DNA of 64,000 bases from Moesziomyces globuligerus (taxonomy: Eukaryota > Basidiomycota > Ustilaginomycetes > Ustilaginales > Ustilaginaceae), in NCBI GenBank assembly GCA_030849465.1, contig JARVLF010000006.1, positions 620,001-684,000 of the forward strand, read 5' to 3'. The notes beneath the pieces were generated by a model. The model was not told the DNA's origin. It saw only the letters and a list, made by a program, of their open reading frames with translations, and did not search any database. The position numbers and the translations under genes are program-made. This document shows positions 47,386 through 54,808 of the stretch, in pieces. Within the stretch, counting starts at the first letter, position 1, and each line of letters starts with the position of its first letter.

Positions 47386-48949
47386 GCTGACCGCTTGCGT
47401 CGACTTGCCGTCCTCACTCCAATTCTTCTGAGGCTCGCCGTGGCGGACGAGCCGATCTCCGCTCAGGCCACATTCGCATGCCTGCGTCCATGCCTCTGGG
47501 CGACCACTGTCCTCCGGACACCCCTCTTCCCTTCCTTTGTATGTTTATTTCAAGTCGGCAATGTCATCGACCATGGAGCAAAGTCCCATGCACGTCCTGA
47601 GTCACAACGGAAGCGAGCTTGAACTATGGCCTTGTGGCTTCACGGTGGCTTCTACTCAGTGATACGAACGGCAAAATTTCGGAGCCTCGGACATCGCCTC
47701 TGACGCACGGAATCCTTACCGTGACGAGAGATCCAGAGCACGAGAAGAGGCTTTCGATTTTCAACGCTTTGTGTGGCCTCGTGAGTGATCTCCTCCCATG
47801 CACGGTTCCTCTCTCTCTTGAGCCTGAGGATGTCGGGATTGTGAGAATGGACAGCGTTGATGAGGGCGACCGCTACGTCTGGATCGCAACGGTTGCTCCA
47901 GTCCTCGTCGTAGGACGGCGGCGGGACCGTCTCACTAAAGTCGAAGTCATCGGGGAAGGAGCCGAGGATCGCCACTCGAGGATCCCTCGCGTGGTTCGTC
48001 CGCGCGCTGACGCGTGCGATCAGCCTGCGACCTGACTCGGTCAGAGGTTGCTGAGGGAGGCGGGGGGCTCATGGTGATTCGAGTCGTGACGATGATCAGG
48101 GACGGGCAAAGACGGTGGTGAGAGTGTCAAAATCCAGCTTCAGCAAGCTCAGACCGACCCAGACGACGGCGTTGCGAAAACGGCCTGATCTGGCACCAGG
48201 ACGAGCACCCTGATTGACTCATTCACTGCGGTCGCAGTAGTGTCCCGCAGTTTTTTTCACCGAGAGCGAGGACAGGTTTCTCGTTCTCATCAGCCAAGTT
48301 TCGATCGTGCGTGCGTGCTTCCCACACCAATGTGTTTGCCGAGTTGTGTGCGATAGATGCGTTTGAAGTGTTTCGGTGGTGTGTCGACACACCATCTCGT
48401 CCGTCTTACACAGATTCAAGGACAGGGAAATGCAGAATTTCAAGTTGTGCAAGACAGGGTTGTATGTGAGACAAACACAAGTCGCCCTGGCGTCCTACTT
48501 GAACACGTTCGAGCTCAGCGTGTCGGTTGCTGATTGGCGATGGTAGAGCTCTTTATCGAGACGACGACTCGAGTCCATCTGATGGACTTTGTCCGAAGTC
48601 AGGATTTGAGCTCTGGCGCTCATTTTCAGCCTGCCAAACTTGACGTGACCATCATCACGACGACGATCCGAAACAAGCTTTCGGCGCGTCTCCTCCACAA
48701 GGACTTCAACCTGCAGCAGCCTGCAGGAGCTGCATGTCATCTGCATGAGGCGGTGCGTTTTATACTTGGCAGGCGTGTGACCGTTGCACGGACTTTTTGG
48801 GTGCATCGGAATCAACCATCAAGGACACCATCGTCTTTTTCTCGACATGACTCTCTCCCGCAGACGCTTACGAGCTCGGACCATTGATCACTCCTTAAAG
48901 CCGAGATCTCTACAGCTGTCACCGCCAGCTTCGAGCTGTCGCACGGTCC
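47386..48949. other. Gene-poor region (about 1.6 kb)
   Basis: Between the polytopic unknown and the tail-anchored unknown. Apart from the short minus-strand frame at 47652-47975, I see no gene. An AAAATTTCGGAGCC motif is at 47673-47686. Confidence 0.55.
47652..47975 (-). pseudogene. Possible Myb/SANT-like fragment
   Basis: A 107-codon open frame with protein-like order, from a GTG codon; no ATG is present in frame before a stop upstream. The middle, DPDVAVALINAVHSHNPDIL then RNRAWEEITHEATQ, has the spacing of a Myb/SANT- or MADF-like helix bundle (Leu-Ile-Val pattern, then Ala-Trp-Glu-Glu-Ile). An ATG-led frame one base out of phase overlaps the start (from 48072, MSPPPPSATSD), which suggests a frameshift or a missed exon. 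A GTAAGG donor-like site lies after ISRH. It could be a relic of a transposon-linked or regulatory gene. Evidence is thin. Confidence 0.3.
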
Positions 48950-50512
48950 ATGTCTGCCGAACGCTGGCTCAGCAACGACGGCTTGCGGTCCAGGTCGTCC
49001 AACCCGGCCAGCAACCTGCCACTGAGCCACAATCTACCTACCGACGTTCTGTGGGAACAACTCGAGGCGAGGCGACCGGTGCCGTTGCGTTTTGCGCTGC
49101 ACCTCTCTCGGCGGCCGAATGGCTCGCTATGTCCGTGCCTTGAAGCGGATCTACCCTCGCGCTCTTCCAGCGTCTCGGCGCACACGGTCACGCGGATCCT
49201 GGACCCAGAGCACCGAGTTCCGTACATCACGCTGAGCCCCATTCTGGCCGCTGCCGAGCTGACGATCCTCCAAGGTCTGCTGCGCTTCCGTCTCACGCCC
49301 GCGGCCTACGATGTTTCGCTCGCAGGTCTCGAGCCCTGGGACGATCTGTGGATCTCGCTCCCCCTCGCCCGCTCCATCGCCGCCGACCTCGGCCTGCTCG
49401 CCAGCCTAGCTGCCATCCTAGATCCTGCCAAGAGCCTCGCGTGGAGCTTGGACGAGTTCACCGAGGGCCTCTCGCATAATTGGCGCGTGCCGCAGGAGGT
49501 CGTGGACGCCGCATCGTACTCGACCGACACCATCACCCGCCCCGGCCTCAGCTTCAACACGCTCCAGATGCTACCGAGCGGACAGCAGATCAAAACGCTC
49601 GTCTCGGCAGAGCTGCGAGCAGAGATCGTCGGCAGGGCCGAGCTGCGCAAACGGCAGCCGACGTTTCAGCTCCACCAGAGATTCCTTAGGTGGTCCGCGC
49701 AACTCCACTCTCTCTGGACCGACCTGACGGCGTTGTTGTCCGCTTCGGAAGAGGGGCACAGCGTACACAGCAAGGCTGAGATCGGAGAGCTGCAGCACGA
49801 AGTTGCGCCTCCTACCTCGACCGACGTGCTCGAGTGGATCCAACTCGTGTCGTCTTCGCGTGTGCCCGACCAGGATAGCTCGGGACTCGCAAACGGCGAA
49901 GAGAGCGTGCTCACACCCCTCTCGCTTGTAGAGCTCTCGGCGCTCAGGGCGACGGACCCAAGCATCGGATTCGGCACCACAACAGACGTACGAGAGCCGG
50001 ACGGCGCAGTGGAGGTGCAGCAGCTGCAGGCGGCATTGCGAGCCAAGATGGCCATGCTGCACAGGATGAACCTCCTCACCCTCTCACCCTTCTTCCGAGC
50101 GCCAGACCTCGATACAGCCAGAGGAGCGAGGGATGGCGGCGCTACTGGTTCGCCTTCTCTAGAGCATGGCCCAGCAACGCGAGCTTCAGCCACCGGCGTG
50201 GCGGGAGAAGCGGCACAGCTCGCAGCAGCAAGCGATGTGGCCGCGCTCGGTGCCAAAGTGGATGCGCTTGCCGAGAGATTCGACCGCTTCATCGAGGCGC
50301 GGACCAGCACCAAACCAGCCGACTCACCGCCACCCAAGACGACCTCTTCGATTGCAATCGGTCTTGACCAATGCGATCTCCCGGACCACGCACAAGTGCT
50401 TGTCCCTCGGACACCCGACTCGATACCAGGTCGCCAGATCGCGCCCTGGCTCATGATCGGATTCCTTTATCTCTTGACGCTCACCACCATAATCAGCTCC
50501 AAGCGTGGTTGA
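48950..50512 (+). CDS. Unknown protein with C-terminal membrane anchor
   Basis: 520 residues, no intron. I do not recognise the family. The bulk is helical with Leu/Ala/Ser-rich segments (ILAAAELTILQGLLRFRLTP; SLPLARSIAADLGLLASLAA) and a predicted coiled segment VEVQQLQAALRAKMAMLHRM. Only the C-terminus is strongly hydrophobic: APWLMIGFLYLLTLTTII followed by SSKRG, a good tail anchor with a short basic luminal end. That would place the rest in the cytosol on the ER, mitochondrial outer membrane or peroxisome. A disordered Ser/Pro-rich stretch precedes the anchor. It converges on the PAQR-domain gene, with 41 bp between stops. Confidence 0.78.
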   Translation: MSAERWLSNDGLRSRSSNPASNLPLSHNLPTDVLWEQLEARRPVPLRFALHLSRRPNGSLCPCLEADLPSRSSSVSAHTVTRILDPEHRVPYITLSPILAAAELTILQGLLRFRLTPAAYDVSLAGLEPWDDLWISLPLARSIAADLGLLASLAAILDPAKSLAWSLDEFTEGLSHNWRVPQEVVDAASYSTDTITRPGLSFNTLQMLPSGQQIKTLVSAELRAEIVGRAELRKRQPTFQLHQRFLRWSAQLHSLWTDLTALLSASEEGHSVHSKAEIGELQHEVAPPTSTDVLEWIQLVSSSRVPDQDSSGLANGEESVLTPLSLVELSALRATDPSIGFGTTTDVREPDGAVEVQQLQAALRAKMAMLHRMNLLTLSPFFRAPDLDTARGARDGGATGSPSLEHGPATRASATGVAGEAAQLAAASDVAALGAKVDALAERFDRFIEARTSTKPADSPPPKTTSSIAIGLDQCDLPDHAQVLVPRTPDSIPGRQIAPWLMIGFLYLLTLTTIISSKRG

Positions 50513-50553: not shown

Positions 50554-52560
50554 CTACGCCTGCAGGGCGGCGCAGACGCCAGCTCTGCCGCCCTCTAGCG
50601 GACCAAGCGCCTCGACGGTGTGCCAGAAGGCATAAGCCCTTCGGATGGAAACGTAATGAGCGGCGGCGGCAGCGAGGATGAGGAGGTGGAAGATCTGGTG
50701 GCTTGCGCCGATCATGTCGAACCTGCCCGGAGCGAAGCGTTCCGGCACCCTAGCGGCGTAGAGCAGCGCGCCGACGACGTAGAGCGCGCCGGAGAGGATG
50801 AGGAAGCGGAGGCCCATGGTCTGGGTGATGGTGCGGTAGCCGTAGATCTGGACGACGTGGGCGACGGGGATGACGGCCGAGAGGCCGAGGATGAGGAAGA
50901 CCGCGGTGCGGTAGGGACGGTAGGCGGGGGTGGCGTAGGAGGGTGCGAGGACGACGTACATGGCGAGGGCGCCGAGGGTGGTGATGCAGAGCGAATAAGC
51001 GAGCTGGAAGTGCGGATGGCAGTAGAAGCCGTAGTGGAGCGCGGGGAGGAAGGAGCCGACGATCATGACGACGATGCCGACGTAGTCGAGCTTGTTGAAG
51101 CGCTTCGAGACCGCGTGAGAGTGGCACTGGATTGCATGGTACGTGGCCGAGAAGCCCAGACACACCACCGAGCCGACAAAGAACGCGCAGAAGCCCGCCA
51201 CGTCCAGCGCGTCCGGCCCGCGCACGACCAGCTTGGACGCCTTGAACGTGAGCGACGCTGCCAAGGCAGACGCACTGTGCAGCGCGGAAGATGAAGCAGC
51301 GGTTGAAGGATAGGAGGCGGAAGCAAGTCGCAGGACCTTGCCCGTGACGGTGGTGAAGGTGAGGCTGGAGGGGTAGAAGATGGGATGGTGCGAAAGAGGT
51401 CGGATGGCGCTGGGGAGGAGGCCGATGTGCTGGAGCAGGTGAATTGTGGAGAGACCGACCGAGAAGACTGCACCCCACATGTGCGTGTGGATGTTGACTG
51501 TTTCGCACCAGAAGAAGAAGGCAAGGTCAGGTCAGGTCAGAGATCGAGCTTGAAAGCATGACGATGCCGGCATGCTGCTCGAGAGATCACGTACCAGTCT
51601 CGTTGTGCCAGTAGGCCCAGATGCTACGCCAGCACTTGTAGATGGTTCCGTGATCAAAGCTTTTTAGGCTTGGATCGGGGTGTGGAGCCCCTCCTGGGCG
51701 ACGGTAGCCCCTTACGATCCAGGCGTTGTCCTGTGCCCAGCTCGGGAGCTGCGAATGATCAACGAGATGCAGGTTAGAGCCGTGTGCTGCAGGACTGTGT
51801 GCCTTCGCCTCCGCCTCCTTCGTTGCGCCGTTCGTGTCGACGACGGCACCGTTGGCAGACGGGACGGAAGCACGAGACTGAGATGGGGCGATCGCACCTT
51901 GGACTCCGGCCGCGACTTTGAGTGTCGTGGACAGTTCGCGAATGAAGGTATACGCGATGATGGACGGGAAGAGGATCCAGAGGCCGTTGGGGAGGATGTA
52001 GAGGAAGATGCGAGTCCACCAGTCGTTGTGTCCGGTCTTGCACCATCCGCAGCAGTAGTCCTAGCCGAAGCGCAAGCAAGAAGCGAGAGAAGGGGTGTCA
52101 ATGAATTCTGTCTGCGTCCACGTGGACGTCTGCGGCGTGGACGTCTGCGGCGTGTGGCACTTACGTTGAGGGCGTAGAGAACGGTCTTGCTGAGCGTCAT
52201 GATGACGGTGATGAGGCCGTAGATGGGAGCGACGGCGAGCGCCTCGGGGGTGGCGCGGACCTGGACGAGGTAGACGTAGAAGAGGTTGAGGAAGCTCTCG
52301 ACGATGTTCATGAGCGTCTGCGCGGCGGGGAAGCCGTCCTTGCTCTCCCACGAGGGGAGACCGTAGATGTAGTCGACGTTCATGTAGTGTGCGTACGGAG
52401 CCCAGATCCAGTGCAGATCGCCGCCGAGGAAGCTGCGCGGGCGCAGCAGGATGTAGCCGATATCCCAGGCGACGACGAGGCTGCTGAAGAAGAGCCACGC
52501 CTTGACGAGCGTCCGCGGGCGGTGCGTCGCGGTGGCGACCGTAGACTTTGCAACAGCCAT
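50554..52560 (-). CDS. EBP-like membrane domain fused to PAQR (AdipoR/haemolysin III) domain
   Basis: Exons 52560-52165, 52060-51595 and 51497-50554; 601 residues. Introns of 104 nt (GTAAGT..GCTAG) and 97 nt (GTACGT..AACAG) keep phase. Residues 1 to about 185 form a four- to five-span domain like fungal emopamil-binding-protein (EBP)-type proteins: LLRPRSFLGGDLHWIWAPY, then GHNDWWTRIFLYILPNGLW. A Met-free linker rich in Ala and Ser follows. From residue 237 (LPSWAQDNAWIVRGYR) the chain is a PAQR seven-span domain with HNETVNIHTH (284-293), SATYHAIQCHSH and HQIFH (554-558), the putative zinc ligands. PAQR proteins (yeast Izh family, adiponectin receptors) are ceramidase- or receptor-like membrane proteins. 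EBP-type proteins act on sterols. The frame has no stop or Met between the domains, so I call one gene. Confidence 0.8.
51521..51540. repeat. GGTCA pentamer repeat in intron 2 of the EBP-PAQR gene
   Basis: Three to four copies of GGTCA within the 97-nt intron, just downstream (toward the acceptor) of the donor region. Confidence 0.7.
52121..52150. repeat. 15-bp direct repeat in intron 1 of the EBP-PAQR gene
   Basis: Two perfect adjacent copies of CGTGGACGTCTGCGG, close to the donor side of the intron. Confidence 0.85.
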
Positions 52561-53169: not shown

Positions 53170-54075
53170 TCAGTCGTCGTTGTCGTCGTCGTCGTCGTCA
53201 AAGGCGAGACCGTCGGTGCGTTGTTGGAGTTCTGCTTGCTCCTCCTGCTCTCTCCTCTCCTTTTCGCGCTGTTCGCGCGTGTAGAGGCTCCAGTCGACCT
53301 CCTGTGCGCCCTCGTCGTCGGCCATGTCTTCTTCGAACGTGCCGCCCTTTTCAAAGAGCTGCTTGCCGCTCGGCTTGGCCTTGCTCTTTTTGTAATCTTC
53401 GCGCTCCTTGAACGAGAGCTTGGCCAGCTTGGCGTCCTCGAGCTTCTTTTCCCTCTCGGCCATCTCGGCGTCAAACTTGACGCGCCACTCGGCGAAGCGT
53501 TCCGGCGTCACGGCGGTGCCGCGGAACTTTTCCGCCTCGGCCTCGATCTCGGCCTCGCGCTTGGCGCTCGCCGCCGCTTCGATCTCGGCGACACGTCGTT
53601 GGACGAGCGTCGTGACGCTCTCGCGCAGATGCGAGGCGAGCGTGAAGACCATAGCCATACCCAAAGACTCTGTCGCGACCTCGTCGAGCCCTTGCTGAAG
53701 CTCGGCGACCGCAGGTCGGTCAGCATCAGAAACCTCTTGATCGTCCTCGTCGTCGGATGTTGCGGGGCCAAGGACGCCCTTGGTATCACGGAGTACCTCG
53801 ATCGACATGTTGGGTGGTGCGTCGGGATAGTCGGGCGTGTAGTGGATGTGGAGCGAGAGGACGATGGGGGAGGGTGAGCCATCTTCGACGCTCTCTGTCG
53901 GCGCTTGGCCTGGCTCGAGGCCGATGGAGAAGAGGAGGGGCAGCAGCTCCTCCTCGGGCTCGATGCGGATGCGGAGCTCCTCGGCAGAGACCTTTTCGAG
54001 CTCGTCGATGTAGATGCTTTCGAGCACCTCGAGCTCCTCGGCCAACGTGGCCTCGTATTCTTCTTGCGAGGGCAT
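53170..54075 (-). CDS. RWD-domain protein, RWDD1/Gir2-like
   Basis: 301 residues from the ATG at 54075 (MPSQEEYEATLAEELEVLES). The N-terminal about 150 residues are an RWD domain: ELEVLESIYIDELEKVS, then LHIHYTPDYPDAPPNMSIEV. A helical, Glu/Lys/Arg-rich region follows (PERFAEWRVKFDAEMAEREK and LSFKEREDYKKSKAKPSGKQ, then LFEKGGTFEEDMADDEGAQE), ending in an Asp run. This matches RWDD1/DFRP2 and yeast Gir2, which bind the GTPase DRG2/Rbg2 and also Gcn1, linking translation to the Gcn2 stress response. The acidic tail is typical. The upstream part of the frame begins with GTG and is not used. No intron is needed. Confidence 0.9.
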   Translation of the reverse strand: MPSQEEYEATLAEELEVLESIYIDELEKVSAEELRIRIEPEEELLPLLFSIGLEPGQAPTESVEDGSPSPIVLSLHIHYTPDYPDAPPNMSIEVLRDTKGVLGPATSDDEDDQEVSDADRPAVAELQQGLDEVATESLGMAMVFTLASHLRESVTTLVQRRVAEIEAAASAKREAEIEAEAEKFRGTAVTPERFAEWRVKFDAEMAEREKKLEDAKLAKLSFKEREDYKKSKAKPSGKQLFEKGGTFEEDMADDEGAQEVDWSLYTREQREKERREQEEQAELQQRTDGLAFDDDDDDNDD

Positions 54076-54808
54076 GGTTTCGAATGTGCCAGGGCAGTGC
54101 AGCTGCAGCACCGACCAGAGTGGGCGTGGAGCGTCGGCGAGCGTGCGAAAGATGGAGGCGAGGCAGTCGAAGCGTGGATACGTGCTGATCCTTGCTATCG
54201 TAGCAAGCCTGACCAGAGGAGAAGAAGAGGTCCTGCAGACTGAAATGGAGTCGCGATTGGCTCCACTCCCGAGTTCCAGGATCTTTGAGCAGCCGGACTC
54301 GGGCGAAACGAGACGAGACGCGCTCCGAAAAAGTGCTCAAGTGAGGCCTAAGCTCAAGTGTTGCACGCGAACCCTGAAAGCCAGCCGAGTCCCGCGTGTC
54401 GCTGCTGTGCTTTGCTGTGCTTTGCCGTGCTTTGCTCTGCTGTGCTCTGCTGTGCTCTGCTGCGCTCCCTATCTCTTGCAGCGCCCACACATGCAGGCTC
54501 CACTTTCAAGACTGCCACTTGCATGCTCACGCGCCCACCGCCCGCCACTCCCCAAGCTCGTACCATCAACCTCGTCCGTCCATCTTGCGATCCAACTAGC
54601 GCCAATCAGCACCCTTCGTCAGCACAGCAACCTCCGCATACGCGCATTGCGGCTGCTGGGACACGCACGATCCGAAGGCCCACCCTCTCCTCGACAAGGC
54701 CTTCCTACCGAGCCACCGTACCGAGGCGCTCGCAGCAATTCAACCGCATCGCGCGGCCCGCCGAAAATCACCACGATCGCACCGCGCAAGCGCTCGTAGC
54801 TCTTCGCC
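54076..54808. other. Divergent promoter of the RWD gene and RAB4
   Basis: Holds a decamer repeat tract at 54401-54460 and a GAACCCTGAA variant near 54368. Frames running through the repeat are Cys/Leu artefacts. No gene is seen. Confidence 0.6.
54401..54460. repeat. 10-bp degenerate tandem repeat, six copies
   Basis: Six adjacent decamers of the type TTTGCTGTGC/TGTGCTCTGC in exact 10-bp register, about 350 bp from either start codon. Confidence 0.85.

Follow-up and report, generated by a model that had tools for sequence, protein, structure and literature searches.

A predicted membrane protein of smut fungi joining an EBP-like EXPERA domain to an adiponectin receptor-type PAQR domain

How PAQR proteins of the adiponectin receptor type (AdipoR) sense the state of the membrane is, to our knowledge, an open question. 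PAQRs of this type have a cytosolic N-terminus (PMC13308352; for Class I, PMC3488014; papers given by PMC number were available in part), and in yeast the related Izh genes are reported to affect sterol levels and Izh2 to act as a ceramidase (PMC8088037). For EBP, a sterol isomerase of the EXPERA superfamily, eleven residues are needed in the human protein (PMC4263179). Here, we analyzed a 64,000-nucleotide stretch of Moesziomyces globuligerus DNA (contig JARVLF010000006.1, positions 620,001 to 684,000; the window), in which a minus-strand gene at 50554-52560 appears to join both kinds of domain. From its sequence and those of its relatives, we regard it as very likely that this is one gene encoding one membrane protein with EBP-like and PAQR domains, and we give a probability of about 0.6 to the fuller explanation in which this fused protein also couples two aspects of membrane lipid handling. 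Two membrane proteins that are encoded by separate genes in related fungi would then be a single protein in smuts, which hints at joint work on membrane lipids.

The gene has three exons that join into one 601-residue frame with 0 internal stops. Exon 1 (52165..52560; 132 codons, residues 1-132), which is supported by homologues, encodes the first helices of the EXPERA/EBP-like domain. It is followed by intron 1 (52061..52164; 104 nt, phase 0, GTAAGT...CTAG), at which spliced relatives continue without a gap (N/DYCC or N/DFCC, the slash marking the site). Exon 2 (51595..52060) carries the end of the EXPERA domain, the linker, and the start of the PAQR domain. Its first part (51902..52060, residues 133-185) encodes the last EXPERA helix, a CxxC-GHN loop, and an NxxW motif (N157, W160); a Met-free, Ala/Ser-rich linker of ~41 residues (51779..51901, residues 186-226) and a block that resembles a PAQR N-terminus (51749..51778, residues 227-236, S-N-x-x-L-V-D-H-S-Q) then lead into PAQR residues 237-288 (51595..51748, LPSWAQDN...HNET). 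After intron 2 (51498..51594; 97 nt, phase 1, GTACGT...ACAG), exon 3 (50554..51497) encodes PAQR residues 288-601 and the stop. The initial annotation called both introns in phase; splicing does keep the frame, but the phases are 0 and 1 and neither length is divisible by three. Met residues occur at positions 1, 60, 84, 121, 294, and beyond, with none from 121 to 294, and the sole ATG in exon 2 (52046) lies in another frame that terminates within the exon, so the earlier observation that neither a stop nor a start separates the two domains holds. In agreement with the initial annotation, a PAQR begun at Met294 (51480) would be broken, since this residue comes after both the HNET motif and the opening block of the domain.

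The second half of the protein matches PF03006 (HlyIII/PAQR) at 4.1e-55, with 187 bits compared to a curated cut-off of 26.2. Its metal-site motifs are complete (N289x3H293, S404x3H408, D425, and H554x3H558) and correspond to the set of Nx3H, Sx3H plus Asp, and Hx3H given for Class II PAQRs (PMC3488014), which confirms that residues 237-601 form a complete PAQR domain, as had been proposed. In AdipoR1, the residue aligned with the matching Asp of the family profile is the one replaced by Ala in the D208A entry 6krz, and in a fold comparison the PAQR half of a relative was ~30% identical to AdipoR1/2. The alignment with human AdipoR2 begins at about the block before LPSW, in a weak stretch (independent E value, i-E, of 0.049). 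On sequence grounds, the PAQR half is a putative zinc-dependent, ceramidase-like hydrolase.

The Pfam EBP model (PF05241) had no match at an E value of <= 1 in the window protein and none in its relative P0001, while it matched 27 of 52 stand-alone relatives at E <= 1, the best at 0.001. Since this model misses the fused protein, its EBP-like nature had to be recognized from profiles and fold comparison of relatives. A profile from an alignment of stand-alone proteins (A3) matched EBP as the only PDB sequence (E 1.2e-4), a profile from a mixed alignment (A1) reached EBP at E 0.017 only, and hhalign with EBP gave probabilities of 82-85. AlphaFold models of relatives match EBP in the first half and AdipoR in the second, the first half has the four-helix EXPERA fold, and EBP is its closest solved fold. 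The suggested presence of both family models in one protein was therefore borne out for HlyIII but not for EBP, for which the evidence is the fold seen through relatives. The window copy keeps 31 of the 32 residues that are invariant in 52 stand-alone EXPERA proteins. Between the last two helices lies a CxxC-x3-H-N loop (residues 136-144, 52025-52051, minus strand), whose C136 and C139 are present in 97% of 60 sequences and which is possibly a disulfide or metal site; we know of no such loop in EBP or TMEM97. In the material searched, no function was assigned to this fungal EXPERA family.

The initial annotation also allowed for sterol isomerization, in which case the EXPERA half would act as a delta8-delta7 isomerase of the EBP type within the fused protein. 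The closeness of the EBP fold favors such an activity, as do the identical residues aligned with EBP W101, Y104, N193, and W196 (4 of the eleven needed residues of PMC4263179, in a MAFFT alignment) and the acidic residues D33, D63, and E88, found in 95-100% of 60 sequences. At E80, D108, R110, Y111, E122, and T125 the MAFFT alignment has no identity; the alignment of these positions is ambiguous, and for E80, D108, and E122 this ambiguity keeps the exclusion from being full. However, the EBP residue H76 aligns with V30 (MAFFT) or with a gap (hhalign), the first helix is His-free, and the genome contains ERG2, the fungal isomerase, at 216662-217376, above its family cut-off. Since H76 has no counterpart and ERG2 is present, we rejected isomerization as the role of the fused protein and regard it as highly improbable.

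Support for one protein with EBP-fold and PAQR domains comes from across species and not from the frame of this genome alone. A search with the whole protein against ~5.8 billion proteins, in which scoring was limited to the 7997 candidates with the most shared words, gave 53 matches. Both halves are represented, at least in part, in sixteen database proteins (P0001-P0016), two of which (P0014 and P0016) lack exon 1. Sources are named for 14 of the 16: 13 are from Ustilago, Sporisorium, Pseudozyma, Melanopsichium, Testicularia, Violaceomyces, and Thecaphora, while P0001 is assigned to the plant chicory, the assembly behind which most likely contains smut DNA. The seven closest fused relatives are 66-82% identical to the window protein. 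By the taxonomy looked up for four species, the fusions cover Ustilaginales, Urocystidales, and Violaceomycetales, three orders of Ustilaginomycetes; the opposite outcome, homologues that are always separate genes in close relatives, was looked for and not seen. In 13 of the 16 proteins the frame passes through the linker into LPxWAxDN, and the block that ends the linker is S-N-P-Y-L-V-D-H-S-Q in 6 of these 13, with variants in the other 7. P0014 and P0016 resemble unspliced frames extending from exon 2 across both the linker and intron 2, which suggests that the linker is open in raw DNA. A further search, keyed to residues 1-190 and to proteins of ~330-1050 residues, found 27 proteins: 15 with PF03006, all among P0001-P0016, 11 without a listed Pfam domain, and 1 from Fusarium (P0170) with DUF924; it missed P0012 and so was not exhaustive. 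P0170, from Fusarium longipes, joins the same EXPERA type to DUF924, which is either another domain combination or an error of gene prediction. Among the matches listed for the whole protein, residues 1-236, or residues 1-190, there was no named Ustilago maydis protein.

As far as the matches listed show, the stand-alone forms with a named source lie outside Ustilaginomycetes. Stand-alone PAQRs were found in Tilletiaria, Tilletia, Sympodiomycopsis, Parajaminaea, Exobasidium, and Malassezia. All 8 that were aligned (P0022-P0027, P0031, and P0033) have an annotated start Met 11-25 residues before LPxW, within what is linker in the fused protein, and a block before LPxW like S-N-P-W-L-I-D-H-D-E, with N in 7 of 8 (not P0031) and L in 7 of 8 (V in P0033). 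Searching with residues 1-236 gave 184 matches; of the 120 listed, some are exon-1 fragments resembling smut sequence, and the rest are EXPERA proteins from Tilletiaria anomala, from numerous Agaricomycetes, and from a small number of other fungi. In T. anomala, which by taxonomy look-up belongs to Exobasidiomycetes, the EXPERA and PAQR halves are on contigs of 173,403 and 155,449 bases and thus are not side by side on one contig. The database name of P0149, a 173-residue EXPERA-only protein from Pyrrhoderma noxium, is "protein related to Adiponectin receptor 1," which was probably carried over from the smut fusion.

Two adjacent genes could also have been mis-joined, by our reading and by gene predictors alike. 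The EXPERA gene would then stop after its last helix and the PAQR gene would start separately, perhaps from an upstream exon that uses a CAG at 51749 as its acceptor. This acceptor-like CAG directly precedes LPSW and has a CTAAC branch-like site ~25 nt upstream, the linker is poorly conserved and without codon bias, and automatic predictors may fuse neighbors. On the other hand, the linkers of 13 of the 16 relatives are stop-free, with two apparently raw open frames, exon 2 has no usable ATG, and the window block just before the CAG (S-N-L-H-L-V-D-H-S-Q) resembles the N-termini of stand-alone PAQRs and, weakly, human AdipoR2, so that it is probably coding. Residues 227-236 are likely a remnant of an ancestral PAQR N-terminus. 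This likeness disfavors the acceptor at 51749 and, with it, the upstream first exon that the initial annotation had named as part of a refuting outcome. We rejected mis-joined neighbors as the principal explanation on the basis of the open linkers in relatives and the PAQR-like block, and consider them very improbable.

A single gene might instead yield both a fusion and an EXPERA-only form through an optional intron in the linker. A splice-like pair lies at 51897 to 51748 on the minus strand (AAG/GTGCGA ... CTAAC ... GCAG/CTCC), and its use in silico works, shifting the frame to give a 217-residue EXPERA-only protein that ends in RSKPKKL. A dilysine-like (KxKxx) tail of this type retains proteins in the endoplasmic reticulum. 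Judged from their protein sequences, two predicted database models, P0008 of Melanopsichium and P0013 of Ustilago loliicola, appear to share this donor position, and P0013 also shares the acceptor. However, such an intron would be 149 nt, longer than the other two (104 and 97 nt), and we consider a two-product gene unlikely compared to one that encodes the fusion.

The assembly that holds the window is 18.5 Mb in 24 contigs and has two PF03006 matches, the fused gene and a long Izh3-like gene on contig C15. This second PAQR (L002 238-2517; G000:C15 near 69658) is distant and has an N-terminal region of ~400 residues. In exon-wise searches of the same genome, the EXPERA half matched only itself, so that, by these searches, neither half has a close separate copy. 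A separate TMEM97-like gene of the EXPERA superfamily lies on the same contig as the window at 351812 (L003 1249-1803, G000:C6; sigma-2 receptor E 6e-4, with a PF05241 match).

In the explanation that we favor, two ancestral genes would have fused, losing the stop codon of the upstream gene and the start codon of the downstream one and giving a four-helix EXPERA (EBP/sigma-2 fold) domain, a flexible linker, and a complete AdipoR-type PAQR. The EXPERA part would bind a sterol or similar lipid without isomerizing it and, held beside the zinc hydrolase, could feed, gate, or place the PAQR, so that sterol state and the release of sphingoid base and fatty acid would be handled by one protein. Both ends of the EXPERA four-helix bundle should be on the same side, which we take to be cytosolic from the lysine-rich tails of its relatives; with the PAQR N-terminus also cytosolic, the halves could join without an extra span in a protein of eleven helices. 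We hold this lipid-coupling mechanism tentatively, at somewhat less than even odds.

Several observations weigh against the fused, lipid-coupling protein. Many fungal PAQRs are predicted to have an outside N-terminus (PMC3488014), an arrangement that would be at odds with a cytosolic EXPERA tail, and the relative placement of the halves is poorly predicted (pTM 0.59); in the P0001 model, linker residues 185-222 are below pLDDT 50. In a plain Foldseek search, the EXPERA model by itself had no match at E <= 0.001, with no EBP among the 50 of 125 matches listed, and hhalign found no match between the stand-alone family and the TMEM97-like exon of this genome (probability 0.1). Among the 16 database models, the linker is missing from P0008, P0013, and P0015, and part of the PAQR just after it from P0009 and P0011. 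The G+C content of the linker by codon position (0.69/0.64/0.62, for residues 186-227 as counted) has no periodicity, and third-position G+C is 0.62 in the linker, compared to 0.92 for exon 1 and 0.83 for the EXPERA-coding part of exon 2; in the PAQR part of exon 2 it is similarly modest, at 0.67, though this part is conserved and so coding. The linker is also open in 0.34 of 5000 mononucleotide shuffles, which makes its openness in this genome alone weak evidence. Since open frame and composition are both weak alone, the decision rests on the relatives.

The fused rows, moreover, gather together but form no single clade in the best tree of either half. Of the 28 rows in the EXPERA tree and the 22 in the PAQR tree, 11 in each were fused proteins: the window protein and 10 of the 16 from databases, the remaining six (P0008, P0009, P0011, P0013, P0014, and P0016) being omitted as partial or oddly modeled. 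Only 17 of many stand-alone EXPERA proteins entered the analysis. The EXPERA tree pairs P0059, a stand-alone protein of Tilletiaria, with the fused P0010 of Violaceomyces (83/92), and the PAQR tree places P0033 of Malassezia, a stand-alone protein on a long branch, within the fused group (group support 89/97, inner forks unresolved). A single fused clade was not rejected (p-AU 0.26 for EXPERA and 0.21 for PAQR) in tests with 26 and 19 rows, from which P0069 and P0109 (EXPERA) and P0037, P0045, and P0046 (PAQR) had been dropped. The simplest reading of these sequences would be one fusion event in or near the ancestor of Ustilaginomycetes; a later split in another lineage may also have occurred.

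A broader proposal of the Rosetta-stone kind is that stand-alone EXPERA proteins of other fungi partner AdipoR-type PAQRs physically or functionally, with sterol state directly gating PAQR hydrolysis, and that smuts froze this pair into one protein; we consider it possible but doubtful. If true, it would have a parallel in animals, where an association of PAQR7 and PGRMC1 with the EXPERA protein TMEM97 is still debated. PAQR7 with PGRMC1 is reported and work on TMEM97 with PGRMC1 is cited in PMC10056622, in the available part of which we found no direct TMEM97-PAQR association. The fusion is kept across three orders without close spare copies in this genome, which points to a shared task, and it offers a simple system for asking whether a sterol-binding fold controls a PAQR.

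Upstream of the gene, at 53170-54078 (minus strand), is an RWD-domain protein (PF05773, 3.8e-19; DFRP_C match below cut-off) that we take to be Gir2-like. Downstream, a convergent open frame at 48899-50512 (plus strand) encodes a C-terminal hydrophobic stretch, ends ~40 bases from the fusion stop, and has no Pfam match at E <= 0.01. A transfer RNA scan of the window found none, and a scan with bacterial-type promoter and terminator models, which are not meant for fungi, was uninformative.

Searches of 5.39 million open papers brought up no description of an EXPERA/EBP-PAQR fusion among the matches and passages covered; the available part of PMC3146951 mentions domain fusion only in general terms, and that of PMC2262911 places ADIPOR2 (YOL002c) among the yeast disease-related proteins that are less conserved in U. 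maydis. The initial annotation's view of the fusion as undescribed thus holds for this literature but not for the databases, where entries from Ustilago, Sporisorium, and others named "related to Adiponectin receptor 1" are the same fused protein under names that, as listed, cover only its PAQR half. Compared to EBP (3-beta-hydroxysteroid delta8,delta7-isomerase; PDB 6oht, 8w0r), the fused protein belongs to the same EXPERA superfamily at 13% identity but has no H76 counterpart, is beyond the Pfam EBP model, has the CxxC-GHN loop, and is joined to a PAQR. The sigma-2 receptor/TMEM97 (PDB 7mfi), of the same superfamily, is more distant than EBP, and the genome has its separate TMEM97-like gene. 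The stand-alone fungal EXPERA proteins of Agaricomycetes, Tilletiaria, and Umbelopsis are mostly 41-55% identical among the matches listed, but unlike the fused protein most end soon after the last helix, without a PAQR. With AdipoR1/AdipoR2 and yeast Izh proteins (PF03006), the fused protein shares the metal-site motifs and the LPxW opening block, with the ~30% identity to AdipoR1/2 given above; it differs from them in that its PAQR has no start Met of its own and has an EXPERA domain in front.
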